Source of the DNA: Pelotomaculum sp.
GTDB lineage: Bacteria > Bacillota > Desulfotomaculia > Desulfotomaculales > Pelotomaculaceae
Direction of reading: 5' to 3'
Length of the DNA: 64,000 nucleotides
Assembly: GCA_018435055.1 (NCBI GenBank)
Contig: JAHDOA010000038.1
Coordinates: 1-64,000, forward strand
Shown here: positions 30,337 through 56,702 of the stretch, piece by piece
Numbering within the stretch: position 1 is the stretch's first letter
Layout of the letters: every line of letters starts with the position of its first letter
Position numbers and translations under genes: made by a program
The notes under the pieces: model-generated
Databases searched by the model: none
The model's input: only the letters and a program-made list of their open reading frames with translations
What the model was told of the DNA's origin: nothing

Positions 30337-31989
30337 ATGAAGACAAGATTTTTAAGCCGGCGATTGGTATTCCTGACAATACTGGTTTGTTCTTTAATAT
30401 TCCTGCCGCTGGCGGTCACATTTGACCGGGCGGAGGCAGAGCCGCTGCTGGCGGACCGGGCGGCGCAGTACCTTAAAAACGAATACGCAAAAAACGGCGT
30501 TATTAACGCGGATATGGGCGTGGGCTCTCATGCTTTTTATCTACTGGCCACGGCCGGTGTTGATGCCGGCGCCTGGAATCATGACGGGATCAGCCTGGCA
30601 GACGCTGTGATCAGCGCGATCCAAAGCGACATAGCAAACGCCGGCCAGGTTCCCGCCAAGCGCCTGGCCCAGGACCTGGCGGCGGCGAAAACGCTCGGCC
30701 GGGAAAACCTGGCGGACCAGCTGCTCCTGGCGCTGAAAAACAGGCAGGACAGCGAGGGGTTTGATAAAAACGGGCCGCTGAGTGTATACAGCAACATCCC
30801 GGCATTTGAAATATTGAGCAGGATCGGCCTGCTCGACCGGCTGGACACCGGCCTGGCCAGAAGCTACGTCCTGGGGATGCAGTACGCCGGAACGGAAGAT
30901 AAGTACCGCGGCAGCTGGGGCTCTACAGACAACGGCCTCTTCTATGCTGATTTCATGGCTGTCACAGGGGCGGTGCGGATGCTGAGCCGCATGGACCCCG
31001 GCGGCAGTGACGCCGGGATCCGGGAGGCTGTCAGCAGCGGCCTGGACTGGCTCAAGAGGCAGCAGCAGCCCGGCGGCAACTTTATGGCCGGCATGGACGA
31101 CACGCTGATAGACACCTGCGATGTGATCGTAACCCTGAAAGAGCTGGGGATCGATCCCGGTACATGGGTGAGCAGCGCGGGCAAGAGCCCTGTCGACTAT
31201 TTGATGAGCGAGGCGCTGAACCCTGACGGGAGCTTCGGCCAGTCGCAGAACGCCATGGACGCCGTCTGGGTGCTCTGGGCGTGCAGGGCGCTGGGGGAAG
31301 ATGCTGAAACACAGCCAGCGGTACAGGCGCAAGTTCAGCAGGTACAGCCGGCACAGCAGGAGCAGCCGGCGACAATCGGCCAAACTAAGTCTGCCGTCCA
31401 GCCTGCGCCGCCGTCATTTAAGGACACAGCGGGCCACTGGGCCTGGGAATCCATTTCCCGTATGGCTGAAAAAGGAATTACAGCGGGTTACTCTGACGGT
31501 TCTTTCAAACCCGAGGCGCAGGTGACCAGAAACGAAATAGCCGCCATGATAGTGCGGCTGCTGCAGCCGGCGCCGGCTTCTGCACAGGATGTGCAGTTAA
31601 TCAATGACAGCTTTGCAGACGCCGGTGACATTCCCGTATGGGCGCTGGAAGCCGCCGCTGTGGCGTTGAGAGAAGGCCTTGTCTCGGGCTGCCCGCAGCA
31701 GGACGGGTCTTTAAGCTTTGCAGGCGGCAAGGCGGTGAACCGCGCCGAGCTGTCGGTGATGATGGCGCGGGTCATTGAAATGAAGCTGGGGCAGGCAGAG
31801 CCTAAAGTCCTCGATTTTGCCGACAACAACCTGATCCCGGACTGGGCCGGGCGATCTGTCGGCATAGTGTACGCCAGAGGGATTGCCGGCGGTTATCCCG
31901 ACCGGACATTCCAGGCGGAAAAGGCGGTGACCAGAGCAGAGGCCGCCTCCATGATCATGCGCCTGGCGGATCAAATTGATAATAAATAG
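30337..31989 (+). CDS. Secreted alpha/alpha-toroid protein with SLH anchors (system 1)
   Basis: This 550-residue surface protein has a signal peptide (to about residue 34), a domain of prenyltransferase/squalene-cyclase-type repeats (about 38-325, with motifs such as WLKRQQQPGGNF and NPDGSFGQSQNAMDAVWVLWA), a Gln/Pro-rich linker and three SLH repeats (about 365-550) that bind the secondary wall polymer. Alpha/alpha toroids of this kind form the N-terminal corrinoid-binding half of animal intrinsic factor. Position before a DUF4430 protein and an ECF transporter, in a riboswitch-rich corrinoid region, suggests surface capture of corrinoids; binding itself is unproven. Confidence 0.87.
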   Translation: MKTRFLSRRLVFLTILVCSLIFLPLAVTFDRAEAEPLLADRAAQYLKNEYAKNGVINADMGVGSHAFYLLATAGVDAGAWNHDGISLADAVISAIQSDIANAGQVPAKRLAQDLAAAKTLGRENLADQLLLALKNRQDSEGFDKNGPLSVYSNIPAFEILSRIGLLDRLDTGLARSYVLGMQYAGTEDKYRGSWGSTDNGLFYADFMAVTGAVRMLSRMDPGGSDAGIREAVSSGLDWLKRQQQPGGNFMAGMDDTLIDTCDVIVTLKELGIDPGTWVSSAGKSPVDYLMSEALNPDGSFGQSQNAMDAVWVLWACRALGEDAETQPAVQAQVQQVQPAQQEQPATIGQTKSAVQPAPPSFKDTAGHWAWESISRMAEKGITAGYSDGSFKPEAQVTRNEIAAMIVRLLQPAPASAQDVQLINDSFADAGDIPVWALEAAAVALREGLVSGCPQQDGSLSFAGGKAVNRAELSVMMARVIEMKLGQAEPKVLDFADNNLIPDWAGRSVGIVYARGIAGGYPDRTFQAEKAVTRAEAASMIMRLADQIDNK

Positions 31990-32038
31990 AAAAAAATAAA
32001 GCCTGAGATTCCAGGATAGATATTGGGAGGGTTGAAAT

Positions 32039-34819
32039 TTGTACCAGGTAAGCAAAGGTTTTTTTAGAAAACTGGGCCTGCTGCTGGCCGTTATTATGGT
32101 CGTGGGGACGCTGTTCGCGGCGCCCGGCGTTAATCCGGCGGGGGCGGCAGTTTCACCGGCAGACAGCGCCATTAAGTTTCTCCATAATGAATACACAACA
32201 AACGGTCTGGTAAACGCCGATGATGGGGTAGGTTCCTACGCCCTTTATGTGCTGATACAGGCGGGTGTCGATGTCGCCACCTGGGAATACGAGGGGACAA
32301 GCCTCGATGAAGCGGTAATAATCGCAATATCCGACGACATATCAAAAGCCGCAGACCCGTCCAAAGTTCCTGCCAAGCGCCTGGCCCAGGACCTGGCGGC
32401 AGCAGTGGCGCTGGGGGAAGACGGCCTGGCAGGCCAGTTGGTGCAGATACTGCAGGACAGGGAGAGCAGCGCCGGCCTTGACGGCAGCCCTTACAGCGAT
32501 ATACCGGCCTATGACCTTTTAGGCAGGGCAGGCAAGTTGAGTGTGGCAGACGAGGTCTACGCGAAGGAATGCATCCTGGCGGCGCAGAACACGACGGCTG
32601 CCGATCTGGACTTCGGCAGCTTCGGCAGTTCAGGGGAGAATGTTTTTTATCCTGACTTCATGACCACGGCGCAGGCGGTGCGGGCCCTGCAATACCTGGA
32701 TCCCGACGGAAGCGACAGCGAGATACAGGGCGCCATCGGAGCGGCGCTGAACTGGATAAAGGCTCAACAGCAGGGTGACGGCAGTTTTTTGGGTTCGGCG
32801 TGGGATGACCCGGTCATTGACACTGCGGAAGTGGTTGTAGCCCTGGATGCCCTTGGAATGGATCCTGAAACATGGGACAGCGGCGGTAATACAGCCGTTG
32901 ACTACATGATGAACGACGCCCTGAACGACGACGGGAGCTTCGGCACGTCAAAGAACGTCATGGACGCCACCTGGGCCCTCAGCGCCTATAATTTAATGGA
33001 CACCCAGTTTTATCTGAGCCCCCCGGACACAACCTTAAATATAGGCAATACAATACAGTTTAAAGCTGTCTGGCAGAACGCGGAAGGTTCTTCTGACGTG
33101 ACGCTGGACGCGGTGTGGTCTGTGGCCGGTGACACCATTGCCTCAATCGACAGCGGCGGCCTGGTCACTGCACTGGCAGCAGGCGAGACGAAGGTCAATG
33201 CCGTTTATAACGGACTGACGGCGTCGGCGAAGGTTACTGTAAGATCATCATCTTCCGGCGGCGGAAATGACGGGACGGGAATAACCGTCGGCCTGGCCGT
33301 GGCGGGCAGGAATAATAAACTATTATACGGCCCTTCCAGTGTATCCGTGGATAAGTCAAACAAGTGGGGTCTCACCGCGCTGGGCGCGCTGGACGCCTCC
33401 GGCCTTGCCTATGAGACCTCCTCGTGGTCTTACGGGGACCTTGTGTACTCCATTGAAGGGCTGTCCAACAGCGGCATGTCGGGCTGGATGTATACTGTCA
33501 ACGGCTCGGTCCCGGGGGTCGGCGCTGATAAATATAATATCAATGATAAAGACAAGATCATCTTCTATTACAGTGAGAGCATGGACCAGCAGCCGCCCAG
33601 GTGGGACGAACTGGGGAAACAGCCTGCTGCCGGCGGGGATGTATCGTCTGCCGGCCTGCCGGAACCGGTTAGAGACAGCGACCTGAATGCCGCTATTAAA
33701 AACGCCGGCGCCGCCGGCCAGGTTGCCCTGGCAGCGAATGACAACGGCGCCTCAATGGCTCTCTCCAGCGACCAGATATCCAAAATCCTGGACGCCGGCG
33801 TGCCGCTGGCCGTTACCATCCAGGGGGCGCAGTTTATACTGTCGCCGGACTGCCTTAAAGTAAAGGAAATGACGGCCGACCAAACGGCAATGATAAAGTT
33901 TGCCGCGCAGAAGCTCAGCAGTAAAGACGCCCAGGAACTGGCAAAGCCCTTCACCGCCAGGCTGAAGCTGGCCGGAGAAATCTATGAGCTGACCATACAG
34001 GTCCTGGATAAAGACGGCACGCCGCGGGACATCGCGCATTTCCCCGGTTGCATGGTGTTTTTGCCTGTGCCGGCGGGTTTGGAGGAAGGCGCCGCCGCTT
34101 CGTTAAAGGCCTACCGCTATAATGAAGACAGCGGGCAGTGGGAGGATATGGGCGGCACATACGATCCGGCCAGTAGGGTTGTCGGCTTCAATGTCGACCA
34201 TTTCAGCAAGTACGCCCTGCTGGAAACCGTCCTCCGGCCCGTGGAAAAAATAGTCTTTATTGATACCGTTGGGCACTGGGCGCAGGCAGAAATTGCATAC
34301 ATGGCCGCGGCAGGTTACGTGGCCGGCGTCGGCGGAAATCAGTTTGCGCCGGAGGCAAAGATCACGCGGGCGGAATTTACCGCCATCCTGGCCCGTATGG
34401 CCGGGCTGGATCCCGATGCCGCAGCGGCGGGATGCTTCAGCGACGTGCCGGCGGACGCCTGGTACCGGGGCATGGTGGGCGCCGCAACTAGCGCCGGTTT
34501 GGTTTGCGGGACCGCTGAAAACAGCTTTGCGCCGGGCGAACCGGTCACACGCGAGCAGATGGCGGCCATGCTGGTGCGGTATATGGCCAAGAATGGCGTG
34601 GGTATGACTGCCGGCGAAGCCGGTGAAGCCGGCCTGCCGTCAGATTTCGGCGACAGCGCGGAGATTTCTCCCTGGGCGAGATCGCCCGTAGCCCTGGCTG
34701 TAAGAGACGGGCTGATGGCCGGCAGGGAAGAAGGGTGGTTCGTGCCGCTCGGCAGCGCCACCAGGGCCGAGGCCACGGTGGTGCTGTACCGGGTGCTGCA
34801 AAAATTGCCGCAGGGCTAA
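32039..34819 (+). CDS. Toroid-Big2-DUF4430-SLH surface protein (system 1)
   Basis: This 926-residue secreted protein begins at TTG with GGAGGG seven bases upstream. Order: signal peptide (1-37), toroid repeats (about 40-320) closely related to the previous gene, a Big_2-type Ig domain (about 325-400), a DUF4430 domain (about 412-518, with SGWMYTVNG near 480), a beta-rich domain ending in VVGFNVDHFSKYALLE, and three SLH repeats (about 735-926). Toroid plus DUF4430 in one chain reproduces the two-domain layout of intrinsic factor/transcobalamin, here attached to the cell wall. Corrinoid binding is inferred from domains and context. Confidence 0.88.
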   Translation: MYQVSKGFFRKLGLLLAVIMVVGTLFAAPGVNPAGAAVSPADSAIKFLHNEYTTNGLVNADDGVGSYALYVLIQAGVDVATWEYEGTSLDEAVIIAISDDISKAADPSKVPAKRLAQDLAAAVALGEDGLAGQLVQILQDRESSAGLDGSPYSDIPAYDLLGRAGKLSVADEVYAKECILAAQNTTAADLDFGSFGSSGENVFYPDFMTTAQAVRALQYLDPDGSDSEIQGAIGAALNWIKAQQQGDGSFLGSAWDDPVIDTAEVVVALDALGMDPETWDSGGNTAVDYMMNDALNDDGSFGTSKNVMDATWALSAYNLMDTQFYLSPPDTTLNIGNTIQFKAVWQNAEGSSDVTLDAVWSVAGDTIASIDSGGLVTALAAGETKVNAVYNGLTASAKVTVRSSSSGGGNDGTGITVGLAVAGRNNKLLYGPSSVSVDKSNKWGLTALGALDASGLAYETSSWSYGDLVYSIEGLSNSGMSGWMYTVNGSVPGVGADKYNINDKDKIIFYYSESMDQQPPRWDELGKQPAAGGDVSSAGLPEPVRDSDLNAAIKNAGAAGQVALAANDNGASMALSSDQISKILDAGVPLAVTIQGAQFILSPDCLKVKEMTADQTAMIKFAAQKLSSKDAQELAKPFTARLKLAGEIYELTIQVLDKDGTPRDIAHFPGCMVFLPVPAGLEEGAAASLKAYRYNEDSGQWEDMGGTYDPASRVVGFNVDHFSKYALLETVLRPVEKIVFIDTVGHWAQAEIAYMAAAGYVAGVGGNQFAPEAKITRAEFTAILARMAGLDPDAAAAGCFSDVPADAWYRGMVGAATSAGLVCGTAENSFAPGEPVTREQMAAMLVRYMAKNGVGMTAGEAGEAGLPSDFGDSAEISPWARSPVALAVRDGLMAGREEGWFVPLGSATRAEATVVLYRVLQKLPQG

Positions 34820-35099: not shown

Positions 35100-35798
35100 A
35101 TGAAGCGCAAGCTGATATATTTTATTGCTTTTCTGGTCATTCTGGGCGTGGTGGCTATCCCGGCCATCTGTATGAACAAGGTTTTCAGCTCAGACCGGCA
35201 GGGGCAGCAGGCGGCAAGCATCGACAAAAATGCCGGGGCTCAGGGCAGCGCGGCAAACCAGAACCAGCCTGCCGCCGGATCGGACCAGGCTTCTCCCGGA
35301 TCGGCTAAAGGCCTGCCTGATACTGAAGCAAAGGAAGGCGATCCGGCGCCGCAGCAGCAGGCTGCCGCGTCAGGCGCCGCTTCCCCGGAAAGTGCGGCGC
35401 CTGCCCCTGCGGACGATGCTGCAACGGTTACGGCGCCTGCAGTATCGCCTGAGAGCGGCTGCCAGGTATGGATTGCCGTAGTCGGCAAAAACGGCGAGCA
35501 GCTTTACCAGGCGGGCCAGGTCCTTTTGAAGAAAGACAATAAGTGGGGGATTAACGCCCTGGGCGCCCTTGAGGCAACCGGCCTCCCCTACACCACTATG
35601 CCGACCTGGCCTGATTTTGTCTATTCCATCAGCGGGCAGGCCAATAGCGGCGTGTCGGGTTGGATGTATTCAGTGAACGGCGACGTTCCTATGCATATGG
35701 CTGACAAGCATCCGGTGAAAGCCGGGGACAGGGTGATCTGGTGGTACAGCAACAGTATGGAACAACCCCAGCCGCGCTGGGATGAGTTGGTACAATAA
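35100..35798 (+). CDS. Membrane-tethered DUF4430 protein (system 1)
   Basis: This 232-residue protein has one N-terminal membrane helix (about 5-27), a long Ala/Gln/Pro/Ser-rich tether (30-120) and a C-terminal DUF4430 domain (about 122-230) with SGVSGWMYSVNGDVP and a closing WWYSNSMEQPQPRWDEL, nearly matching the domain of the preceding protein. It lies immediately before ecfT, where an ordinary ABC system would have a binding protein. I infer that it receives ligand from wall-bound proteins and presents it to the ECF transporter. That relay is hypothesis. Confidence 0.85.
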   Translation: MKRKLIYFIAFLVILGVVAIPAICMNKVFSSDRQGQQAASIDKNAGAQGSAANQNQPAAGSDQASPGSAKGLPDTEAKEGDPAPQQQAAASGAASPESAAPAPADDAATVTAPAVSPESGCQVWIAVVGKNGEQLYQAGQVLLKKDNKWGINALGALEATGLPYTTMPTWPDFVYSISGQANSGVSGWMYSVNGDVPMHMADKHPVKAGDRVIWWYSNSMEQPQPRWDELVQ

Positions 35799-35817
35799 AA
35801 GCAAAGGGGCTGCAAAT

Positions 35818-36747
35818 TTGTTTGGCAAGCTTTACTACCAGGACAAAGGGCTATTCTTGCAGAGCTTTCACCCGGCCGCAGTCCTGGTGTACTTTCTTGT
35901 GCTTCTTGTTCTGAGCCTGCTTTACGACAATCCCCTTTATCTTTTATCCCTGCTGTTCCTGCTGGCCCTCTTAATTAATGGGGTTGACGGCATGGAGGCC
36001 TGGGAGGGGTTTTTAAAAGTTGGCGTCTTGATGACGCTTGTTGTCATGGTTGTCAACCCGCTGGTGATCAGGGCCGGCGCCACGATCATCTGGCACGGCC
36101 CGGCTGTGCCGTTCCTGGGCAGGCTGGACATTTCGATGGAAGCCATTTATTTTGGGGCCGTGTCCGGTCTCAGGCTGCTGGTGATCATGAGCATATTCTG
36201 CCTTTACAACCTGATGGTCAACCCGGACAATGTGCTGAACCTCTTTTCCCGGGCGGCCGGCAAATCGGCGCTGATGGTGGCCCTGGCTACGCGGATGTTT
36301 CCCGCCATGGTCAGGGACCTGAAGCGGATAAAAGAAGTAATGCAGCTTCGCGGCGTTGATTTTGAAGAGGGCAGCCTGTGGGAGAGAGTGAAGAAATACT
36401 CTGTCCTTTACAATGTCATGCTGCTTTCCTCCCTGGAGGGCTCCATGGAGATAGCCGAATCCATGCAGGCCAGGGCTTACGGCAGCGGCAGGCGCTCGGT
36501 ATACAGCCGGAAGCTGCTGCGGCCCAGGGATTACCTCAGCATGGGGGGCAGCCTGCTGGCCCTGTCCGCCGCGGCCTGGGGGCTGCACAACGGATGCGGG
36601 CGCTATGCCTTTTACCCGGTGGCGGACGCCCTGGTCGGGGGCAGCTCGACGCTGGCAGCCCTGTTTGTTGTGCTTTTTTACCTGTCTGTACCGCTTATTC
36701 TGAGCGAGGGGTGTAAGTATTGCCGCTTTATAAAATCGAAAATCTGA
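35818..36747 (+). CDS. ecfT: ECF transporter transmembrane component EcfT (system 1)
   Basis: This polytopic protein couples the ATPase dimer to the substrate-binding EcfS. It has about five to six hydrophobic helices and the cytoplasmic coupling helices with Ala-Arg signatures (ATRMFPAMVRDL and ESMQARAYGSG), as in CbiQ/EcfT. The start at TTG 35818 has AAAGGGG eight bases upstream; a longer frame from 35782 overlaps the previous gene. It overlaps the ecfA gene by 28 bases, so the set is one operon. Confidence 0.9.
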   Translation: MFGKLYYQDKGLFLQSFHPAAVLVYFLVLLVLSLLYDNPLYLLSLLFLLALLINGVDGMEAWEGFLKVGVLMTLVVMVVNPLVIRAGATIIWHGPAVPFLGRLDISMEAIYFGAVSGLRLLVIMSIFCLYNLMVNPDNVLNLFSRAAGKSALMVALATRMFPAMVRDLKRIKEVMQLRGVDFEEGSLWERVKKYSVLYNVMLLSSLEGSMEIAESMQARAYGSGRRSVYSRKLLRPRDYLSMGGSLLALSAAAWGLHNGCGRYAFYPVADALVGGSSTLAALFVVLFYLSVPLILSEGCKYCRFIKSKI

Positions 36748-38429
36748 CTTACTATTATCCTGAAGCTGAAAAAGCTGCGCTGAATAATATCAGCCTGGAG
36801 ATCGAAGACGGGGAATTCATCCTGGTGGCGGGCGGCTCCGGTTCGGGCAAGTCCTCGCTGGCCAGGGCGCTGGCAGGCCTGATCCCGGATTTTTACGGGG
36901 GAAGGATCGGCGGGAAGATTTATTTTCAGGGGTGGGACATCAGGGCAATGGACCGCAGGAAGCTGGCCAGGCAAGTGGGTATGGTCTTCCAGGACCCGGA
37001 AAAACAGATCGTGCAGACCCATGTCGAGGCAGAAATAGCTTTTGGCCTGGAGAACCTGGGTTTAGATAACGAAGAGATGCTGCGCCGGGTGGCCGAGGTG
37101 ATATGCTTCATGGACCTGGAACAGATCAGGGGGGACTTTACGGCCAATCTGTCCGGCGGGCAGAAGCAGAAGCTGGCCCTGGCTTCCGTCCTGGCCATGC
37201 AGCCGCACGTGTTGGTCCTGGACGAGCCCACTTCCCAGCTGGACCCCGTTTCGGCGGAAGACATCCTGAACCTGGTCAAGCGGCTGAACGAGGAAATGGG
37301 TTTTACCGTGGTCATGATCGAGCAGCGGTTGGAGCGGTGTTACCACCTGGCGGACCGGGTTTTATTAATGGATAAAGGAAGAATTGCCTGTGACGGGAGC
37401 GCCCGGGCAGTAGCCCGCAAAACCATTAAGGGATGCGCGCCTTTTCTGCCGCCGGTGGCCAGGTTTTTTGCCGGTTTGCAGGCGCCGGCCGTGCCGCTGA
37501 CGGTCAAGGAGGGCAGGAAACTGCTTCGTTCCTGTCTAAATATTAAAGAAACCGGCGCGGCGCGTCCCGCTCCTGGAGCAGGCGATGCCTGCCCTGCTGA
37601 CTACACGGGGCGGAGATGCGCCGTGCGCCTGAAAAACCTGTGGTTTACCTACCCGGGTGGTCAGGAAGTTTTAAAAGGCGTCAGTTTGGATGTCGGGGAG
37701 GGGGAATTTGTAGCAGTCCTGGGTGAAAACGGCGCGGGCAAGTCGACGATGCTCAGGCAGTTGACCGGCCTGCTCAGGCCGGACCGGGGCACTGTCGAGG
37801 TCTTCGGCCAGGACGTCGGTAAAAACGGGTTCAAGGAGATCAGGAAGCACATCGCATACCTCTCCCAGAATCCCAATGACTACCTCTTCCAGGACACAGT
37901 GGAGGACGAGCTGCTCTTTACCCTGAAAAATTTCGGCCTGAAAGATACGTCCGCTGTCGATGAAATGCTGGAAAGGTTCAACCTGGCGCAGTACCGCCGG
38001 ACAAATCCGCGGGATCTGAGCAGCGGCGAGAGGCAGAGGGTCGCCCTGGCGTCGGTGCTGGTCACTTCCCCCGGGCTGATCATCCTGGACGAGCCGACCA
38101 GGGGGGTAGACTTCCGCCTGAAGGCGGAACTGGGCAGGTTCCTGCAGCAGGAAGCGGCAAAAGGCCGCACGGTGATAGTGGTGACCCACGACGTGGAGTT
38201 CGCCGCCGAGTATGCCGCCCGGGCGGTGATGATGTTTTCCGGCAGGGTGGTCAGCGACGGTAAAAAGCACGATGTACTGGGTAAATCGGTCTTTTATTCC
38301 CCCCAGCTGTGCAAAATGTGCCGGGGCATCTGTGACGGCGTGCTCACTTTCAGCGAGGCGCGGGACAGGATCTACCCCCTTATCACGGGCGGCGCGGTCG
38401 TGGCTGAAGGCCCGGGGGTGACGATGTGA
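36720..38429 (+). CDS. ecfA: Fused EcfA-EcfA' ATPase (system 1)
   Basis: Two complete ABC ATPase domains lie in one 569-residue chain. The first has GGSGSGKSS (about 38), LSGGQKQK (about 143) and VLVLDEPT; the second has GENGAGKST (about 336), LSSGERQR (about 433) and LIILDEPT. They form the energising pair of an ECF importer. A TTG start has GGGGTG upstream. The stop overlaps the ecfS start. Fusion of the two ATPases is common in some Firmicute ECF systems, and this fusion differs from system 2 by lacking the S domain. Confidence 0.93.
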   Translation: MPLYKIENLTYYYPEAEKAALNNISLEIEDGEFILVAGGSGSGKSSLARALAGLIPDFYGGRIGGKIYFQGWDIRAMDRRKLARQVGMVFQDPEKQIVQTHVEAEIAFGLENLGLDNEEMLRRVAEVICFMDLEQIRGDFTANLSGGQKQKLALASVLAMQPHVLVLDEPTSQLDPVSAEDILNLVKRLNEEMGFTVVMIEQRLERCYHLADRVLLMDKGRIACDGSARAVARKTIKGCAPFLPPVARFFAGLQAPAVPLTVKEGRKLLRSCLNIKETGAARPAPGAGDACPADYTGRRCAVRLKNLWFTYPGGQEVLKGVSLDVGEGEFVAVLGENGAGKSTMLRQLTGLLRPDRGTVEVFGQDVGKNGFKEIRKHIAYLSQNPNDYLFQDTVEDELLFTLKNFGLKDTSAVDEMLERFNLAQYRRTNPRDLSSGERQRVALASVLVTSPGLIILDEPTRGVDFRLKAELGRFLQQEAAKGRTVIVVTHDVEFAAEYAARAVMMFSGRVVSDGKKHDVLGKSVFYSPQLCKMCRGICDGVLTFSEARDRIYPLITGGAVVAEGPGVTM

Positions 38430-39055
38430 CGGGGACAACCTGGGGCCTGTACATAACCATAGCCGGTATTTTTTCTGCCGCCCTGCTCATGCTGGGGATG
38501 GAGAAAAAGGCTGGCCTGAACGCGAGGCAGGTGTCGCTCATCGCCATGCTGGCCGCTTTTTGCGCCGCGGGCAGAATGGTAACCGGCGTAGCCCTGCTCT
38601 TTCTGCAGCCCACCATGTTTTTGGTGGAGATCACGGGGTTTGTGTTCGGAGCGCGGGTCGGCTTCTTTGTGGGCGCGATGACGCCCTTGATATCCAATTT
38701 TTTTATCGGCCAGGGGCCCTGGACGCCCTGGCAGATGATCTGCTGGGGCCTGGTGGGCATGTCCGGGGCGGCAGTCAGATATTTGTTTCCCCGGGCGGGA
38801 TATAAAACTATCACCGTGCTTTGTTTTGTCTGGGGCTACCTATACGGGGCCATCATGGACATCTGGCAGTGGAGCGTCTTTATCAGGCCGCTGACCTTCC
38901 AGTCATATTTTCTTATCTGGGCGGCCGGTTTCAGTTTTGATTCCCTGCGTGCCGCGGGCAACCTGATCTTCTGCGCCGCACTGGGCGGCCAGAGCATTAA
39001 AATACTGCGGTACTTCCATAAAAAAATGGATGTCCGGTACCTGGAAAATATATGA
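38426..39055 (+). CDS. ECF transporter substrate-binding component EcfS (system 1)
   Basis: This 209-residue membrane protein has six hydrophobic helices and the loop FFIGQGPWTPWQMICWG, which recurs almost unchanged in the S region of the fused protein at 53937. Reads from a GTG start that overlaps the ecfA stop. EcfS defines specificity; gene context (corrinoid salvage, DUF4430 proteins, riboswitches) points to cobalamin or cobinamide, and CbrT-type S components provide a precedent. Specificity is inference. Confidence 0.85.
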   Translation: MTGTTWGLYITIAGIFSAALLMLGMEKKAGLNARQVSLIAMLAAFCAAGRMVTGVALLFLQPTMFLVEITGFVFGARVGFFVGAMTPLISNFFIGQGPWTPWQMICWGLVGMSGAAVRYLFPRAGYKTITVLCFVWGYLYGAIMDIWQWSVFIRPLTFQSYFLIWAAGFSFDSLRAAGNLIFCAALGGQSIKILRYFHKKMDVRYLENI

Positions 39056-39069
39056 GGGGGCAAATCCAC

Positions 39070-40359: not shown

Positions 40360-40411
40360 GGAAAAGTCTTGCTTAATGCCGGGGCGGCAAAAAAAGAAGG
40401 AGGGTAATGAG

Positions 40412-42830: not shown

Positions 42831-42910
42831 CAGGGTAAAACAACGGCTGACCCTGGATCTGGCAGGCCCAAAATATTGACAAAAAACGGTTGTTAATTAT
42901 TAATAATAAG

Positions 42911-43510: not shown

Positions 43511-43535
43511 CTTTCTGCATACAACTGAATATCTG

Positions 43536-43658: not shown

Positions 43659-43757
43659 TGCTTGTGCCTTCCAAGGAAAGGCGGTAAGCTTTTTGTGGCG
43701 GCGGCGCGCAGTCCAGCGGGTGGACCTGCGGCGGCGCCGGCTCTTACCGAAAGAACG

Positions 43758-47300: not shown

Positions 47301-49765
47301 TAGGGAGCGTTGAGAGAAACGGACGGATATTCTTAAGCGTAACGGACGGGATGGACCTCGCCTGGGCGGTGGACGCCTCCGGCCAGCCGGTAAGCTTCCC
47401 AGACGGGATTCACCACATTAAGGTGCAGACCGTCAGTGATATCAATAACGGCGGTATCGGCGAAAAATCTACTGAAATCAACATGGTTCAGAGGGTCGAG
47501 GGTATGAACGCCGTCGGGAAAACCGGCGCGCCCAGTTCGATCACTGTGGACGGGCAGGCTGTCCCCCTGAGCGCCGGAATCAGCTCTTATAATGTGAGCG
47601 TCAGCGGCGGCTTCACCGTGCTGGTCGACGCCGGCGACACCGCCAACGTTTATATAAACGGCAGCCGCACCAGAAACGCGACCTATTCGGAAATTCCCTC
47701 CCATGGAATGATCCGCGTAATCATACAGGAGGGCGCAAAGGAACCCGTTATCTATTATCTGACGCTTGCCGATACCGGCGAGGTCCCTGTCATCAGCCAG
47801 GTCACGCTCGACGCCAACGGCGGTAAGGTAAACGGCCAGGACAGCGTTACCTTGACCTATGACGCGGGCATGGCCGGCTCTGTATTTCCCACGCCAACGC
47901 GCAGCGGATATACCTTTGTCGGCTGGAGAGGCGTCGGTCAGGCTTACTACTCCGCCTACAGCGCGGAATTGACCGGTGATGTGACGCTTACGGCAATATG
48001 GAAAGAAACGGGTTCCAGCCCGGATCCGGGTCCGGTGGCAAATCAAATTTCAGTGTCCTTCAGGCTTATCGGTTCCACGCTGTCTGACGGCGATGTTGAT
48101 TTAAGCGAAGGCGAAGCCGGTTATCATGGCGCGAAGTATGTTACTTGGATAAAAACGGCCAGCTATACTATGAACGAGGGCGAAACTGTATACGATCTGT
48201 TTGACCGCGCCTTGGACAATGCCGGCCTGGTGGCACTGGGGCAGGACAAGAACTATGTCAAGACGATCTACGCTCCCTCAATTTGTGGCGGATATGAATT
48301 AAGCGAAATGACGAACGGTCGCCGCTCGGGCTGGATGTACACAGTCAACGGGGATCATCCCCTATTTGGCCTGAAGGAATGTGTTTTACAGGATGGCGAT
48401 GCAGTAGTTTGGCATTACGTAAACGATTATGCTTATGAAGTACATGATTGGGGAAATCTTGGCGGCTCGGGTTATCCAGCAATGGGCGACAGCACATTCT
48501 GGAACAAGTGGCTCGAGGCCGGGGACAGAGATCCCAATGTCAGCGATGCCTCCGGTGGCACGTCTCACACATCCCCGGGTTCGAGCGCTATCGCCCCCAA
48601 GGCCACCGCGACGAACGGCGTTGCGTCAGCAGCCGTCTCGTCGTCCGACTTGGCCTCCGCCATCGCCGACGCCAAGAAAAACAACAGCGCCGCCATCCTC
48701 ATCAGGCCCGAGATCACCGGCGAGGCTAAAAAGGTCAGCATCGAACTGCCAAAGAAATCGCTTTCCTCCATTGCCTCCGATACCGACGCCGACCTGATAG
48801 TAGAGACGCCTGTAGGAACCGTAGCCATCCCCAATGAAACGCTGGCCGCCATCGCCGCCCAGGCAGCCGGCGGCACAGTAACAGTAAACCTGGCGAGCGT
48901 AGACAACACGGCCCTGACCCCGGCCCAGCAGGAAGCCGTAGGAGACAACCCCGTCTACGACATCACCATTGCCAGCGGCGGCAGCAGCATCAGCAGCTTC
49001 GGCGGCAACAAGCTCACAGTTTCCCTGCCCTATACCCTCAAAGAAGGCGAAGACCCGGGCGGCGTCACCGTCTGGTACCTCAGCGACGCCGGTGAGTTGG
49101 AACAAGTGACCTGCACCTACGACCCGGCCACCGGCCTGGCCGCCTTTACCACAGACCATCTGTCCCGCTATGCCGTGGGCTATGTCGAGTATGCGGCGGT
49201 TCCTATCTGGGCAAACCCCTTCAGCGACGTGAAGACCACCGACTGGTTCTATGACAGTGTGGCCTTCGCCGTGCAGAAGGGCCTGTTCAGCGGTACAAGC
49301 GACACCACCTTCAGCCCGAATGAGCCGATGACTAGGGCCATGCTGGTAACGGTGCTGTACCGCCTGGAAGGCGAACCTCCCGTCACCGGCGCCAACAGCT
49401 TCACCGTTGTAGGGAGCGGCCAGTGGTACACCGACGCCGTCCTCTGGGCCAATGCCAAAGGCATCGTGGCGGGTTACGGAGGCGGGCTGTTCGGCGCCGG
49501 CGACAGCATTACCCGCCAGCAGATGGCGGCCATCCTGCACCGCTATGCCAGTCACAAGGGTTACGACGTAACGGCCGCAGCCGATCTGTCGGCCTATACC
49601 GACGCCTCGGAGGTCAGCGATTGGGCGGAGACCGCCATGAAGTGGGCCAAAGCGGAAGGGTTGATCACCGGCCGCACCGCGAGCACCCTGGCGCCGGAAG
49701 GTAGCGCCACCCGGGCCGAAGTGGCGGCGATCCTGCAGCGGTTTGTCGCAGGCTTCACAGAATAA
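44342..49765 (+). CDS. Giant secreted multidomain DUF4430-SLH protein
   Basis: This 1807-residue surface protein has a signal peptide (to about residue 39), a CARDB-like domain (about 50-155), beta-rich segments, a bacterial Ig domain (Big_3-like, about 590-670), a Listeria-Bacteroides repeat (Flg_new-like, about 1153-1220, with GYTFVGW), a DUF4430 domain (about 1235-1375, SGWMYTVNGDHP near 1328), a domain ending in AAFTTDHLSRYAVGYVEYA, and three SLH repeats (about 1619-1807). The ATG follows GGAGGG. No toroid is present. It lies downstream of riboswitch 4 and DUF2292 copy 2, so corrinoid-controlled expression is likely; it could be an auxiliary corrinoid-binding surface protein. Confidence 0.87.
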   Translation: MSRLSKGRAGRSLLRSMSLLVALTMLLSLLSLLPVQALARAGQGVGVENIGVMAGKAGSLSPAAGIEAGGAYTVQVTVQNGGAEEAAALSVALYEVWGKAETPLDEAQGVESLAAGMGITLDFAWTPQEAGDYMLRAVLTAGGEETDAEELAVSVAGQFAGLFSMTPLVDELNDDTGDPLFGLDFNYNVIEEFTPLPAPASIAADFPDGQAFILPFCGQAEFSSLDQISLNSVTKKNLNGETKISSSGSQGTPPNRRYHQSLNLSAYAYSSETAPEWRSLFGTELYVIKLIHQSQVHYLLLSDSYTDGEDVYTIARKPGYNTTASHLPKSATYLCGDPAAALQYTITNLDPGSAGLGAVTYQWFVSGTDNVEGGLALPGADSPAYTPTTAHVGTSYYYLVITNTLEQGNTPSHISVTTTPLTGISVMDVPAWDSETPQDIPLDLSYDNGARLNKITVSGADVVGAEGTWSLVDNQMYDYTYNIVLSAQSKTGDSITSAFDIQDQVVVGNIPYPSLSRHSFRADGAWLLAGPMDVVTKLRPDLKLNHTGYSVALANEGASIEVFLYRGNTDFNPGGMKFTLNFTVAYEDPALETVQSLSIAAPPDRTDYLYGESFDPQGMVVMAHLQDGSEMEVRDYAVSPSGPLTLAEDKVIISYGGHSVEQEISVSSAPVIGRAEMKNGQFIMEQPLYDEYDAHVVIRCGEEKGLMDITVPAGVSVTLNGAPWTVTAEGKCSLSLNTSGGAMGTANTIVLGFEDQTSTYTVTCHSQLYSGMPDAVTDYLCINSQYTNGMGWGTFLLTYGLNGVSSLVGSNSSTGGMYSGPTSLGNFGGYITYYYKDAIYDNPNSPYGVDFITYGNSVEGSNQFAEPGQVWVSEDGEEWYALAGSLHYEDCADWDKTITYSRTFNGKTRVTADGVTSLSDYSYPLKKNYPLFDWPEGAESSIILRGVSLSAQSGENEYGNTLPQFPDFGYTDVGLCGGPEPVGNPYLGSVERNGRIFLSVTDGMDLAWAVDASGQPVSFPDGIHHIKVQTVSDINNGGIGEKSTEINMVQRVEGMNAVGKTGAPSSITVDGQAVPLSAGISSYNVSVSGGFTVLVDAGDTANVYINGSRTRNATYSEIPSHGMIRVIIQEGAKEPVIYYLTLADTGEVPVISQVTLDANGGKVNGQDSVTLTYDAGMAGSVFPTPTRSGYTFVGWRGVGQAYYSAYSAELTGDVTLTAIWKETGSSPDPGPVANQISVSFRLIGSTLSDGDVDLSEGEAGYHGAKYVTWIKTASYTMNEGETVYDLFDRALDNAGLVALGQDKNYVKTIYAPSICGGYELSEMTNGRRSGWMYTVNGDHPLFGLKECVLQDGDAVVWHYVNDYAYEVHDWGNLGGSGYPAMGDSTFWNKWLEAGDRDPNVSDASGGTSHTSPGSSAIAPKATATNGVASAAVSSSDLASAIADAKKNNSAAILIRPEITGEAKKVSIELPKKSLSSIASDTDADLIVETPVGTVAIPNETLAAIAAQAAGGTVTVNLASVDNTALTPAQQEAVGDNPVYDITIASGGSSISSFGGNKLTVSLPYTLKEGEDPGGVTVWYLSDAGELEQVTCTYDPATGLAAFTTDHLSRYAVGYVEYAAVPIWANPFSDVKTTDWFYDSVAFAVQKGLFSGTSDTTFSPNEPMTRAMLVTVLYRLEGEPPVTGANSFTVVGSGQWYTDAVLWANAKGIVAGYGGGLFGAGDSITRQQMAAILHRYASHKGYDVTAAADLSAYTDASEVSDWAETAMKWAKAEGLITGRTASTLAPEGSATRAEVAAILQRFVAGFTE

Positions 49766-50536: not shown

Positions 50537-52198
50537 ATGCGGGTAATGAAAACAGGCTTATCACTTTTAGTGGCGCTGATGATTCTGTTCGGAGGAGGCC
50601 AGGCAGCTCATGCCGCTGCGAATCAAACAGTAAAAGCGGCCATAGAGGACACGGCTCAGTACATTTATAACACGGTAAAAACTCCCCAGGTGGGGTCCAT
50701 CGGCGGGGAATGGGCAATTTTAGGGCTGGCACGTTCAGAATACAAAGTACCCGAGAAGTATTACCGGGACTACTACGCCAATGTGGAAGCCTATGTCAAG
50801 GAACGCAAGGGCGTGCTGCACGACAAGAAATACACCGAGTATTCCCGCCTGACGGTGGCGCTGACTTCTATCGGCAAGGATCCCAGGGATGTGGCGGGCT
50901 ACAACCTGCTGATGCCCCTGGGCGACTTCGACAAGACCATCTGGCAGGGGATCAACGGCCCTATCTGGGCGCTGATCGCCCTTGACTCAGGTAGTTACCC
51001 GATGCCGCAGAACCCCGTCGCGGCGACCCAGGCCACCCGGGCTATGTATGTGGACGAGATCTTGTCCCGGCAGCTTTCCGACGGCGGCTTCTCCCTCTTT
51101 GGCGGGATTGCGGGCGCAAGCGCCGCCGATGAAAAATCCGACCCGGACATCACCGGCATGGCCTTGCAGGCCCTGGCCAAGTACCAGGACAGGGACGACG
51201 TGAAAAAGGTTACCGGGGAAGCCCTGGAATGTCTCTCCAGGCTGCAGAACGCAAACGGCGGCTTTGCCGGCTGGGGCGCCGGCAATTCCGAGAGCTGCGT
51301 GCAGGTCATCGTGGCTCTCACCGAGCTGGGCGTGCCCCTTGACGACCAGCGGTTTGTAAAGAACGGAAACACACTGCTGGATAACCTTTTGACCTTCTAT
51401 CTGCCCGGGGAGGGCTTCTTACATACCGCCGACCGCAGCGGCTCAAACCAGATGGCCACCGAGCAGGGCTTTTACGGGCTTGTCGCCGCCCAGCGGGCGC
51501 AAGAAGGTAAAAGCAGCCTGTACCGCATGGCCGATGACGCAAAGTCCCCAGCTCCGGTAGTGGAAACAAACACCACCGGGGCGGGGCTTCCCGGCAAACA
51601 CGCTGACGTCAAGATCGTGCCGCCGGTCTATCCGGGCAAGACCTTCCCCGACATCAGCGCCCATGTAAACCGGGCCGAGATCGAGGCGCTGGCGGCGCGG
51701 GGCATTATCAGCGGTAAAACAGATACTTCCTTTGACCCGGACGCCACCATGACCCGGGGCGAGTTTGCCGCCATCGTGGTGCGGGGGTTGGGGCTTTCCG
51801 AAAAAGCCGGCAGCGTGTTTGCCGATGTCCCGGCCCAGAGCTGGTACGCGGGATACGTGGGGTCCGCCTACAGCTACGGCATCGTCAGCGGCGTCTCCGC
51901 CGGCGCCTTCAACCCGGAGGGGACCATCACCCGGGAAGAGGCGGCGGTCATGGTGGCCCGGGCGGCCAAGCTATGCGGCCTGGATACCGCCCTTGGCGCC
52001 GGCGCGGTACGGGACATGCTGGCCCAGTTTACCGATTACATCACCGCCTCCGATTGGGCCCGGCCCTCGCTGGCCTTCTGTTACCGGGAGGACATCCTTT
52101 CCCGGGCGGACCTTGAGATCAGGCCCGGGGCGGCCATCAAGCGCTGCGAGGTCGCCGGCATGCTGTTCCGTTTGCTGGGCGCGGCCAGCCTTCTGTAA
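50537..52198 (+). CDS. Secreted toroid protein with SLH anchors (system 2)
   Basis: This 553-residue surface protein has a signal peptide (to about residue 30), alpha/alpha-toroid repeats (about 32-330, with ILSRQLSDGGFSLFGG and LQNANGGFAGWGAGNSESCVQVIVAL), a linker and SLH repeats (about 365-550). It is the system 2 counterpart of the gene at 30337, with only partial sequence similarity, so it is not a recent copy. AAGGAGG lies 12 bases upstream of the ATG, a longer gap than usual; the ATG nine bases later is an alternative. Confidence 0.86.
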   Translation: MRVMKTGLSLLVALMILFGGGQAAHAAANQTVKAAIEDTAQYIYNTVKTPQVGSIGGEWAILGLARSEYKVPEKYYRDYYANVEAYVKERKGVLHDKKYTEYSRLTVALTSIGKDPRDVAGYNLLMPLGDFDKTIWQGINGPIWALIALDSGSYPMPQNPVAATQATRAMYVDEILSRQLSDGGFSLFGGIAGASAADEKSDPDITGMALQALAKYQDRDDVKKVTGEALECLSRLQNANGGFAGWGAGNSESCVQVIVALTELGVPLDDQRFVKNGNTLLDNLLTFYLPGEGFLHTADRSGSNQMATEQGFYGLVAAQRAQEGKSSLYRMADDAKSPAPVVETNTTGAGLPGKHADVKIVPPVYPGKTFPDISAHVNRAEIEALAARGIISGKTDTSFDPDATMTRGEFAAIVVRGLGLSEKAGSVFADVPAQSWYAGYVGSAYSYGIVSGVSAGAFNPEGTITREEAAVMVARAAKLCGLDTALGAGAVRDMLAQFTDYITASDWARPSLAFCYREDILSRADLEIRPGAAIKRCEVAGMLFRLLGAASLL

Positions 52199-52216
52199 AA
52201 AAGGATGGGATGGGAT

Positions 52217-53074
52217 ATGAAACAGTATAAGGGAAAAATCATAGCGGCGGCGGTAATACTTGGCGTACTTGCCGCAGCCTTTCTCTGGGGTGGAAATTAC
52301 CCAGGCCGGGATGTCTCCTACAGGGCGGACACACCGGCAAGTACGGCGACAGCGGGTGCGCCCGGCAATTCAAACGAACCGGCCGCACCGGCGCCGGGGC
52401 AGTCTCCCGCCGCGGAATCCGCCGCGCCCGGTTCCGACAAAGGCCGTCCCCTTACCGCCGAAGAGAAGCTTGCGCTGGCGGCCTCCCTTGCCGGCGATGA
52501 ATCCTCCCCGGGAGTGGAGGAGGGATCGGCGGAGTATTCCGGGCAGCAGGGCATGGCCATCGACAAAGCCACCGGCAAGGACAAATACCTCACCGGTCCC
52601 GTGCCGGAGGGCAAGCCCGTACCCGTAGAGCCCGAGAACGCCGTGATCAAAGACACGGCCTATAGCTGCACCCTGTCGGTACGCTGCGACACCATCCTTA
52701 ATAATATAAAATGGCTGGACCCGGAAAAGGTGGAGCTGGTACCGGAGGACGGGGTCATTTTCCCGGCCGCCAGGGTTACCTTCTACGAGGGGGAATCGGT
52801 GTTCAACTTGCTTTTGCGGGAGATGAAGAAAAACAAGATCCATATGGAGTTTGAAAATACCCCCATATACAACAGCGCCTACATCGAGGGCATCAACAAC
52901 CTCTACGAATTCGACTGCGGCGAGCTTTCCGGCTGGATGTACAAGGTCAACGGCTGGTTCCCCAACTATGGCTGCTCCCGCTATCAGCTGAAAGACGGCG
53001 ACGTGGTGGAATGGGTCTATACCTGTGACCTGGGCCGTGACGTGGGCGGATATTACGCCATCGGAGGCCAGTAA
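52217..53074 (+). CDS. Membrane-tethered DUF4430 protein (system 2)
   Basis: About 285 residues: N-terminal helix (about 8-27), Ala/Pro/Ser-rich tether (to about 130) and a C-terminal DUF4430 domain with LSGWMYKVNGWFPNYG (about 236). Four or so cysteines in the domain (SCTLSVRC, EFDCG, YGCS, YTCD) could form disulfides, a feature not seen in the system 1 protein. The stop overlaps the ecfT ATG (TAATG), so the two are coupled. Role proposed as the receptor feeding the ECF importer. Confidence 0.84.
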   Translation: MKQYKGKIIAAAVILGVLAAAFLWGGNYPGRDVSYRADTPASTATAGAPGNSNEPAAPAPGQSPAAESAAPGSDKGRPLTAEEKLALAASLAGDESSPGVEEGSAEYSGQQGMAIDKATGKDKYLTGPVPEGKPVPVEPENAVIKDTAYSCTLSVRCDTILNNIKWLDPEKVELVPEDGVIFPAARVTFYEGESVFNLLLREMKKNKIHMEFENTPIYNSAYIEGINNLYEFDCGELSGWMYKVNGWFPNYGCSRYQLKDGDVVEWVYTCDLGRDVGGYYAIGGQ

Positions 53075-53964
53075 TGCGGGACTCCTTTTCCGCCTACCAC
53101 CCGGTGGTCAATTTCCTGTATTTCACACTGGTGCTGTTGTTTTCCATGTTCTTTATGCACCCGGTCTGCCTGGGTATTTCTTTGCTGTGCGCTTTTATCT
53201 ATTCAGTCTATTTAAACGGCAAAAAGGCATTGAGCTTTAATTTAAAATACATGCTGCCCATGCTGGCTGTAACGGCGCTGGTCAACCCCGCCTTCAACCA
53301 TGAGGGCGGGACCATCCTCACCTACCTGCGGGGCGGCAATCCTTTGACGCTGGAATCCATCGTCTACGGCATCGCGGCGGCGGTGATGCTCATCACGGTG
53401 ATCTGCTGGTTTTCCTGCTACAACGCCGTGATGACCTCGGACAAGTTCGTCTATCTCTTCGGGCGGGTCATCCCCGCCCTGTCGCTGATTCTGTCCATGG
53501 CCCTGCGCTTTGTGCCCCGCTTCAGGGCTCAGTTCAAGGTGGTTTCCGACGCCCAGAAGTGCGTGGGCCGGGATATATCCAACGGGAGCATTTTGCAGCG
53601 GGCGAAGCACGGTGTCAGGATCCTCTCCATCATGGTCACCTGGGCGCTGGAAAACGCCATCGAGACGGCGGATTCCATGAGGAGCAGGGGTTACGGCCTG
53701 CCGGGGCGCACCGCCTTTTCCATTTACCGCTTCGACAGGCGGGACAAAAGCGCCCTGCTCTTCCTGCTTTTTTGCGGCGGGTATATCCTGGCCGGCGCTA
53801 CGCTGGGCGGCCTTTACTACCGCTACTTTCCCACCATGAAAGGCGTGTGGCTGGAGCTTTACCCCGTCAGCCTGTATCTTTGCTATCTGGCCCTGGGCAG
53901 CGCGCCGGTGGTCATCAATATAAAGGAGGACCGGAAATGGAAAGCTATACGATCAGGGACCTGA
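53074..53964 (+). CDS. ecfT: ECF transporter transmembrane component EcfT (system 2)
   Basis: This 296-residue polytopic protein matches EcfT/CbiQ: hydrophobic helices, then the coupling stretches ALRFVPRFRAQFK and SMRSRGYGLPGRTAF with the Ala/Ser-Arg-Gly motif that contacts the ATPases. It overlaps the start of the ecfA-A'-S gene by 28 bases. Gene order (DUF4430, T, A-A', S) is the same as system 1. Confidence 0.91.
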   Translation: MRDSFSAYHPVVNFLYFTLVLLFSMFFMHPVCLGISLLCAFIYSVYLNGKKALSFNLKYMLPMLAVTALVNPAFNHEGGTILTYLRGGNPLTLESIVYGIAAAVMLITVICWFSCYNAVMTSDKFVYLFGRVIPALSLILSMALRFVPRFRAQFKVVSDAQKCVGRDISNGSILQRAKHGVRILSIMVTWALENAIETADSMRSRGYGLPGRTAFSIYRFDRRDKSALLFLLFCGGYILAGATLGGLYYRYFPTMKGVWLELYPVSLYLCYLALGSAPVVINIKEDRKWKAIRSGT

Positions 53965-56702
53965 CCTTTTCCTATCCCCGGCAGAAAAAGCCGGCGCTGC
54001 GCGACCTTTCCCTTTCCATCGGGCAGGGGCAGTTCGTCGCCCTCTGCGGTCCTTCCGGCTGCGGCAAAACTACCCTGCTCCGGCAGTTGAAAACCGTACT
54101 TGCGCCCCACGGTGAACGCAGGGGCGAGGTCCTTTTCGAGGACACGCCATTGGAAAGCCTTGACCGGCGTACGCAGAGCGCCAGGATCGGGTTTGTGCTG
54201 CAATCGCCGGACAACCAGATCGTCACCGACAAGGTATGGCACGAACTGGCCTTCGGGCTGGAAAGCCTGGGCTTCGACACACCGTCCATCCGCATGCGGG
54301 TGGCGGAAATGGCCTCCTTTTTCGGGATCCAGACCTGGTTTTACAAAAATGTCAGCGAATTATCCGGCGGGCAGAAACAGCTCCTCAACCTGGCCTCTGT
54401 CATGGTCATGCAGCCGTCGGCGCTGATCCTGGACGAGCCCACCGGCCAGCTGGACCCCATTGCGGCGGCGGAATTTCTCGCTGCCGTGGGCCAGATCAAC
54501 CGCGAGCTGGGCGTCACCGTCATTATCACCGAGCACCGGCTGGAAGAGGCGCTTCCCCTGGCGGACCGGGTGCTGGTGCTGGACGGGGGGCGGCTCATCT
54601 GCGACGGCGCGCCGGAGGATGTGGGCAGACAGCTGAAGGAGCGGCGTCACGCCATGTTTCTGGCCATGCCGGCGCCTATGCGGATCTATGCCGGTGTGGC
54701 CAACGACCTGCCCTGCCCCGTCACGGTGCGGGAAGGGCGCGCCTGGCTGGACGCCTTCGCGCAGCAGCAGCCGCTGGGCGAAGTACCCGCGGAAAACAGG
54801 CCGGCGCCTGAGCAAAACGGCACGCCTGCCGTTGAATTCCAGGAGGTGTGGTTCCGCTACGAAAAGGACGCGCCCGACGTGGTGAAGGGATTATCCCTGA
54901 AGGTGTTTCCAGGCGAGTTCTGGGCCGTCGTGGGCGGTAACGGTACCGGCAAAACCACGGCCCTGTCGCTGATTCCGGGCATAAACAAGCCCTACCGGGG
55001 GACAGTGCGGATCAATGGGCAGGACCTGTCCAAGGACGGCCGGCGGCAGCTTTTCCATCAACTGTTGGGCGTACTGCCCCAGAATCCCCAGGCTATTTTT
55101 GTCAAAAAGACGGTGCAGGAAGACCTCTTGGAAATAATCTCAGAGCAGAAGCTGTCCAGAGCGGAAAAGGCCGGCCGGGTGTGGGCGGTCTCCAGGCTGT
55201 GCCGCCTGGAGGGGCTGCTTTCCAGGCACCCCTACGACCTGTCCGGCGGCGAGCAGCAGCGGGCGGCATTGGCGAAGGTGCTGCTGCTCCAGCCCAGGAT
55301 CCTGCTTTTGGACGAACCCACCAAGGGGCTGGACGGCGAATTCAAGCAGGTGTTCGCCCAAATTCTATATGATCTCTTACGCCGGGGCGTCACCATCCTC
55401 ATGGTCAGCCATGATATTGAATTCTGCGCCCAATATGCCCACCGCTGCGCCCTGTTTTTTGACGGCAATATCGTCAGTTCGGCCGCGCCCCGCCGGTTCT
55501 TCTCCGGCAACAGCTTTTATACCACCGCCGCCAACCGCATGGCGCGGCATAAACTGCCCGGGGCGGTGACGGCGGAGGACGTGATCGCCGCCTGCGGGGG
55601 AGATGCAGCGCCTTTTGTCATCCAGCCGCCGGCAGAGAGTGAAGCGGCCTCCTGCCCTTCCCTGTGGGAGCAAAGTGAATCGCCGGAAGAAAAGAAAACC
55701 GGATCAGGGTGTGCGGAAGAAGCAAAAAATCCTCCCCTGGGGCGTAAAGTCAAGGCGGCCCTGGCAGCGCTGGCTTTTTTCATCACCGGGGGTTTTGCCG
55801 CCGGTCATATGGGCGACCTCTCCACACTTGCGGCCGGGGGAGACATGTCCGCCGGATCGGCCGGCAGTCTCGCCGTCGTCTGGCGCTACGCCCTGGCCAT
55901 CCTGGCGCCGGCAGCGGTTCTCGGCACACTTTACAAGACCTTTTTTCAAAAAAAGACGGACTCACCCATAGCAAATGAACAGACAGCGGCGGACAAACGC
56001 CATCTTTCAAAACGCACACTGGCGGCCATGGCCATGATCCTGCTGGCCATACCGCTGACCATATACACCGGCGTCTATTATCTGGGCGACAGGAAATATT
56101 ATTTCATCAGCATGCTCATCATCCTGGAGACCATGCTCCCCTTTGTGATGGTGTTTGAGCGGCGCAGGCCCCAGGCCCGGGAACTGATCGTCATCGCGGT
56201 GCTTTGCGCCGTCGGCGTGGCCGGGCGGGCCGCCTTTTTCATGCTGCCCCAGTTCAAGCCGGTAACGGCCGTCGTCATCATCGCCGGCGTGGCCTTCGGC
56301 GGCGAAGCGGGCTTTCTGGTGGGCGCGGTCACCGCCTTTGTATCCAACATGTTCTTCGGCCAGGGGCCGTGGACGCCGTGGCAGATGTTTGCCTTCGGCA
56401 TCATCGGCTTCCTGGCGGGCGTCCTGTTCCGCAAGGGCATCCTGCGGCGGAATACGGCAGCGCTGTGCGCCTTCGGCGGGCTGGCCACATTTTTCATTTA
56501 CGGCGGCATCATGAACCCGGCGGCGGTGCTGATGTTCCAGAGCCGCCCCACGCCGGAGATGTTTTATCTGGCCTATCTGCAGGGCATCCCCTTCGATCTG
56601 GTTCATGCCGCCGCCACCGTAGTTTTCCTGTGGTTCATCGCCAGGCCCATGCTGGAAAAGCTCGACCGGATCAAGGTCAAATACGGGCTGGTTGAGGCTT
56701 GA
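53937..56702 (+). CDS. EcfA-EcfA'-EcfS triple fusion (system 2)
   Basis: One 921-residue polypeptide combines two ABC ATPase domains and an S component. ATPase 1: GPSGCGKTT (about 36), LSGGQKQL (about 141), ALILDEPT. ATPase 2: GGNGTGKTT (about 332), LSGGEQQR (about 434), ILLLDEPT. A linker and two extra hydrophobic helices (about 605-665) precede an S region (about 690-915) with FFGQGPWTPWQMFAFG, nearly identical to the separate EcfS of system 1. The start at 53937 has AAGGAGG at proper spacing; the open frame upstream belongs to the antisense-free overlap with ecfT. A single A-A'-S chain fixes one dedicated S protein per ATPase pair, unlike the usual shared ECF module. Confidence 0.9.
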   Translation: MESYTIRDLTFSYPRQKKPALRDLSLSIGQGQFVALCGPSGCGKTTLLRQLKTVLAPHGERRGEVLFEDTPLESLDRRTQSARIGFVLQSPDNQIVTDKVWHELAFGLESLGFDTPSIRMRVAEMASFFGIQTWFYKNVSELSGGQKQLLNLASVMVMQPSALILDEPTGQLDPIAAAEFLAAVGQINRELGVTVIITEHRLEEALPLADRVLVLDGGRLICDGAPEDVGRQLKERRHAMFLAMPAPMRIYAGVANDLPCPVTVREGRAWLDAFAQQQPLGEVPAENRPAPEQNGTPAVEFQEVWFRYEKDAPDVVKGLSLKVFPGEFWAVVGGNGTGKTTALSLIPGINKPYRGTVRINGQDLSKDGRRQLFHQLLGVLPQNPQAIFVKKTVQEDLLEIISEQKLSRAEKAGRVWAVSRLCRLEGLLSRHPYDLSGGEQQRAALAKVLLLQPRILLLDEPTKGLDGEFKQVFAQILYDLLRRGVTILMVSHDIEFCAQYAHRCALFFDGNIVSSAAPRRFFSGNSFYTTAANRMARHKLPGAVTAEDVIAACGGDAAPFVIQPPAESEAASCPSLWEQSESPEEKKTGSGCAEEAKNPPLGRKVKAALAALAFFITGGFAAGHMGDLSTLAAGGDMSAGSAGSLAVVWRYALAILAPAAVLGTLYKTFFQKKTDSPIANEQTAADKRHLSKRTLAAMAMILLAIPLTIYTGVYYLGDRKYYFISMLIILETMLPFVMVFERRRPQARELIVIAVLCAVGVAGRAAFFMLPQFKPVTAVVIIAGVAFGGEAGFLVGAVTAFVSNMFFGQGPWTPWQMFAFGIIGFLAGVLFRKGILRRNTAALCAFGGLATFFIYGGIMNPAAVLMFQSRPTPEMFYLAYLQGIPFDLVHAAATVVFLWFIARPMLEKLDRIKVKYGLVEA

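Follow-up and report, generated by a model that had tools for sequence, protein, structure and literature searches.

Two riboswitch-controlled gene sets with transcobalamin-like surface proteins and CbrT-type ECF transporters probably scavenge corrinoids in a Pelotomaculum genome

The bacterial systems closest to those considered here were set out by Burroughs et al. 2007 (PMC1796856), who described fusions of a toroid with a transcobalamin-C-domain (SLBB) in bacteria including Desulfotomaculum, accompanied by paired paralogous surface proteins, surface anchoring, and CbiO/CbiQ operons, and who proposed a role in B12 scavenging and a transfer to animals. In the animal carriers intrinsic factor, transcobalamin, and haptocorrin, a toroid and a beta-grasp domain are contained in one chain. 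On the transport side, the ECF-CbrT of Lactobacillus delbrueckii (PMC5997447, PDB 6fnp) is an experimentally proven B12 transporter that takes up cobalamin and cobinamide, and its CbrT shares the ECF module with other S components. The CbrUVT system of gut genome reconstructions (PMC6593275) is likewise an ECF system given as a B12 transporter, and the part of that report dealing with it makes no mention of surface toroid/DUF4430 proteins. A search of the open-licence literature returned no experimental test of bacterial toroid/DUF4430 uptake systems, and a study published elsewhere may have been missed.

The DNA analyzed here (the window) comprises positions 1 to 64,000 of contig JAHDOA010000038.1 from the Pelotomaculum sp. 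assembly GCA_018435055.1, and contains two gene sets of this kind, all members of which lie on the plus strand. The first-pass annotation of the window knew of no earlier bacterial description of the arrangement, a view that the 2007 prediction overturns, and with that precedent the two sets become a well-supported example of a type of system already predicted. They share with the 2007 systems the combination of a toroid with a transcobalamin C-domain, a second SLBB paralogue, and CbiO/CbiQ-like genes, whereas the 2007 text makes no mention of SLH or S-layer domains and is older than CbrT. They resemble ECF-CbrT in the S component, the ECF energizing module, and the corrinoid gene context, but differ from it in that T, A-A', and S are encoded together with surface binding proteins. 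What is new here is the SLH anchoring, the CbrT-type S components, the conservation across the class, the riboswitch survey, an EcfA-A'-S fusion, and an uptake-linked CbiJ lineage.

The first system is headed by a cobalamin riboswitch (27130-27337; RF00174, 86.1 bits), which is followed by a CbiJ-like reductase, an uptake-linked paralogue (27783-28547; PF02571, E 2e-59), and by an ABC-2 type transporter pair consisting of an ATPase (28608-29486; PF00005) and a permease (29519-30220; PF01061, E 5e-24). The pair at 28608-30220 is conserved within the system 1 operon, the ATPase being kept at three loci of relatives (L053, L057, and L099). Next come two toroid-SLH surface proteins (30337-31989 and 32039-34819), the second of which also carries Big_2 and DUF4430 domains and is transcobalamin-like, and then a probably membrane-tethered DUF4430 protein (35100-35798; PF14478, E 3e-13) with a hydrophobic segment at residues 5 to 23. 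The importer genes encode EcfT (35782-36747; PF02361, E 9e-15), an EcfA-A' fusion with two ATPase domains (36720-38429; two PF00005 stretches), and an EcfS of the CbrT family (38426-39055; PF07155). Downstream of EcfS lie a gene for a predicted SBBP-type beta-propeller protein (39052-40359; NCBIfam LipL53-like, E 3e-9), which is also kept in relatives, and genes for the corrinoid adenosyltransferase CobO (40316-40951; PF02572, E 2e-63), a carbon-nitrogen hydrolase (41289-42056; PF00795, E 1e-25), and the adenosylcobinamide amidohydrolase CbiZ (42105-42830; PF01955, E 1e-56). The cobO, cbiZ, and cbiJ genes named by the first-pass annotation are thus all present.

Two riboswitches (42899-43089, 100.5 bits; and 43526-43666, 67.8 bits; both RF00174) precede the second system. 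Its first gene encodes a 1807-residue surface protein in which Pfam recognizes CARDB, Big_3, DUF4430, and SLH domains (44342-49765), and this protein is assigned to the second system because its homologue starts the same cassette at locus L106, in a genome of another family (G106). It is followed by a toroid-SLH protein (50537-52198) with a strong SLH match (E 1e-27) and a weak match to squalene-cyclase-type repeats, a probably membrane-tethered DUF4430 protein (52205-53074; PF14478, E 8e-19) with a hydrophobic segment at residues 12 to 30, and EcfT (53074-53964; PF02361, E 1e-9). The double gene order that had been claimed is therefore found at both places by Pfam and NCBIfam, with small corrections; a separate EcfA-A' followed by a separate EcfS holds for the first copy, while in the second copy both parts form a single open frame (53937-56702) with two ABC_tran stretches, a linker containing two predicted hydrophobic segments, and a PF07155 S part. 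An orthologous fusion, 69% identical across the linker and the S part, is found in G106, where it sits in the same cassette downstream of a riboswitch, and its occurrence there makes a sequencing error an unlikely cause of the single chain. In a further genome, G022, A and S are encoded in two separate frames. The divergence of the two copies was also borne out, with identities between them of 36% for EcfS, 27% for EcfT, and 38% for EcfA.

A fourth riboswitch (59081-59221, plus strand; RF00174, 78.8 bits) stands before a gene for a secreted protein (59943-60857, plus strand) with a divergent DUF4430-like stretch, detected at residues 121 to 190 by hhalign against a local DUF4430 profile (85% probability, E 6e-6). 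The window had been said to hold five cobalamin riboswitches, and no fifth was found in it at a relaxed threshold (E up to 1). In the same part of the window, a polymerase-beta-type nucleotidyltransferase adjoins a HepT-like ribonuclease (58001-58868), which is likely a toxin-antitoxin pair, and 117-bp tandem repeats (61390-61905) lie inside the frame of a repetitive secreted-type protein (60886-61896).

DUF4430 (PF14478) is above the cut-off in four window proteins, those starting at 32039, 35100, 44342, and 52205, and SLH matches are found in the proteins at 30337, 32039, 44342, and 50537, which also have predicted N-terminal hydrophobic segments. For the 32039 protein Pfam reports a toroid, Big_2, DUF4430 (E 3e-14), and three SLH domains, and the 30337 protein is 46% identical to its N-terminal (toroid) part over 316 columns. 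Sequence searches did not reach the animal carriers: a toroid/DUF4430 profile matched Big_2 and terpene cyclases and no transcobalamin, and the 52205 DUF4430 protein gave chance matches only in the PDB. Recognition required a comparison of folds. An AlphaFold2 model of 485 residues of the 32039 protein, covering the toroid, Big_2, and DUF4430 and built with 22 related sequences, has a pLDDT of 90.3, and the first 13 matches retrieved for it by Foldseek from the PDB are haptocorrin, transcobalamin, and intrinsic factor (E 7e-9 to 4e-7), with a TM score of 0.70 by target length to the isolated transcobalamin beta domain 5no0. With a relative that lacks Big_2 (L073; pLDDT 92) as the query, these carriers are found again, at E 8e-10 to 2e-8. 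Pfam, model, and Foldseek thus agree with the earlier statement that toroid and DUF4430 share one chain in the 32039 protein. The suggested comparison with intrinsic factor succeeded in that the carriers are the best structural matches, but not in the relative orientation of the domains. Whole-chain TM scores of the ligand-free 32039 and L073 models to the animal carriers are 0.34 to 0.47 with an rmsd of 15 to 24 Å, and when L073 was folded to look for domain closure as in intrinsic factor, its two domains did not superpose as a unit, indicating that the domain folds are alike, but not showing the two domains closed in a sandwich around B12. The 32039 protein further differs from the animal carriers in its SLH wall anchor, its Big_2 insert, and its low identity (about 13 to 14% in the structural alignment), and the bacterial system has no receptor-mediated endocytosis.

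At E up to 1, the sole PDB sequence match of the S component of the first system (EcfS1) is CbrT in 6fnp (E 9e-9). That of the second system (EcfS2) matches the same chain at E 1e-10, with one more, chance match at E 1.6, and a profile built from twelve S components matches CbrT alone among the S components in the PDB (E 3e-22). An EcfT and two EcfA ATPases, as expected of a CbrT-type ECF transporter, are found in both copies. From sequence, the S components of both copies are strongly supported as CbrT homologues with predicted corrinoid transport.

The genome survey suggested by the first-pass annotation shows that the gene order recurs, mostly behind cobalamin riboswitches. DUF4430 is present in 37 of 60 relative genomes and cobalamin riboswitches in all 60. 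With the host included (61 genomes), at least 52 of 94 DUF4430 matches, 4 of these 52 being the window's own, have a riboswitch at most 10 kb upstream on the same strand, against about 0.6 expected from random placement of the roughly 150 riboswitches listed when genomes are taken to average 2.8 Mb (two genomes excepted). When 21 regions were scanned closely, a riboswitch was found upstream in 20, and in the remaining one (L040) it lies about 4 kb beyond the region edge. The order toroid-DUF4430-SLH, small DUF4430, EcfT, EcfAA', EcfS repeats in almost every locus read, in Pelotomaculum, Desulfofundulus, Desulfotomaculum, Syntrophomonadaceae, and others; some loci depart from it, for example by lacking the small DUF4430 gene. 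Of 113 genomes of the class, 60 encode an S component resembling CbrT (E up to 1e-15). DUF4430 is also present in Lactococcus lactis, where no cobalamin riboswitch was detected, so the domain is not exclusive to B12.

The host genome, listed as 100% complete with 4.4% contamination, has three TP_methylase matches in frames of 515, 356, and 548 residues, which by size and by comparison within the genus would be CobA-HemD, RsmI, and MazG, whereas each of the relatives that have CbiD has 7 to 9 TP_methylase matches. CbiD was searched for in the host and its same-genus relatives and was not found. With so few TP_methylases, apparently none of them corrin-ring methyltransferases, and no CbiD, the host is very probably a corrin-ring auxotroph. 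Its other riboswitches lead cobU-cbiP-cbiB-cobS, cobT, and a CbiZ-like gene with btuFCD. CbiZ starts cobamide remodelling in Rhodobacter (PMC7733943), a role that fits a cell importing mixed corrinoids. A further copy of the first system's ECF genes and DUF4430, 75 to 93% identical to them and with its own riboswitch, lies elsewhere in the host assembly (L035, contig C31; G000:C31:38000-57900), and no toroid gene was found in it, so not every unit requires a toroid. This copy could have arisen by recent duplication, or could have been assigned to the host through a binning error. The host accordingly carries at least two, and probably a third, B12-controlled sets of surface-protein and importer genes.

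The CbiJ-like reductase at 27783-28547 is retained in this host without ring methyltransferases or CbiD. It clusters with CbiJ proteins that relatives encode next to this uptake operon, and also with CbiJ proteins that are second copies in their genomes, in a clade separate from the CbiJ of biosynthetic clusters (FastTree support 0.997), and in the host and three same-genus genomes, all without CbiD, this lineage supplies the sole CbiJ. In Dehalobacter restrictus, too, an alternative CbiJ is under riboswitch control, and starvation for corrinoids induces it (PMC4285132). We tentatively suggest, as one possibility among several, that the uptake-linked CbiJ is a nicotinamide-dependent reductase working on corrinoids that have been imported or damaged, and not in ring synthesis, a role that would belong to bacteria in which the remainder of the ring pathway is gone.

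The explanation we favor, with a probability of roughly 0.8, is that a very probable corrin-ring auxotroph here carries two systems for scavenging corrinoids, both under riboswitch control, that combine wall capture, a tethered DUF4430 protein, ECF import, and processing by CobO and CbiZ. It is built on the observed genes, domains, fold similarity, riboswitches, conserved neighbourhoods, and absence of ring-synthesis genes; the corrinoid link proposed earlier for both systems was upheld by these riboswitches and neighbourhoods, the CbrT-type S components, the salvage genes, and the ring auxotrophy, and corrinoid uptake by the two systems is very likely. We infer that the toroid/DUF4430 proteins bind the ligand: the SLH-anchored ones would act at the wall like transcobalamin and intrinsic factor and catch cobamides or cobamide precursors there, and the membrane-tethered DUF4430 protein would gather the ligand at the membrane, the relay from wall to membrane being hypothetical. 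The dedicated ECF transporter with its CbrT-type S component would then bring the corrinoid into the cell, where it would be adenosylated by CobO and may be remodelled by CbiZ together with CobU, CbiP, CbiB, CobS, and CobT, whose genes lie elsewhere in the genome. The two copies might, hypothetically, prefer different corrinoids.

One alternative is that the toroids take no part in uptake: the ECF transporters could import corrinoids with the help of the small tethered DUF4430 proteins only, while the SLH toroids serve wall structure or the binding of carbohydrate or protein. The toroid models do also match GH76, GH105, and terpene cyclases, and the third copy of the host has no toroid; but these matches are weaker (E about 1e-4 to 1e-3), and with both domains together the B12 carriers rank ahead by several orders of magnitude. 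Most relatives fuse toroid and DUF4430 in one chain, and the toroid genes sit inside riboswitch-led operons, which together leave this explanation improbable. Somewhat less probable still is a non-corrinoid substrate for the second system, for example a related tetrapyrrole or a cobalt complex, with the riboswitch there for co-regulation only. The modest identity of EcfS2 to EcfS1 and the patchy distribution of the cassette, which has close relatives only in G022 and G106, would be compatible with it, yet EcfS2 matches CbrT and no other S component, and the cassette stands behind a riboswitch in the window, at L038, and at L106. EcfT falls into the CbiQ family of Pfam and NCBIfam, labeled "cobalt transport", which might be read as a sign of cobalt uptake in place of corrinoid uptake, but EcfT scores 31 bits against the cobalt-specific TIGR02454 (CbiQ), far below its cut-off of 111.8 bits, no CbiM or CbiN is present among the annotated window proteins, and the S component is CbrT-like; this is very improbable, and a role in cobalt uptake alone was rejected.

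Corrinoid scavenging by these systems would supply a complete genomic case for the 2007 proposal that the animal B12 carriers descended from Gram-positive surface proteins, and it provides defined proteins for binding and transfer assays. The systems also suggest a possible way for a Gram-positive anaerobe to catch a large and scarce cofactor at its wall, and that the supply of cobamides matters to such community-dwelling bacteria.
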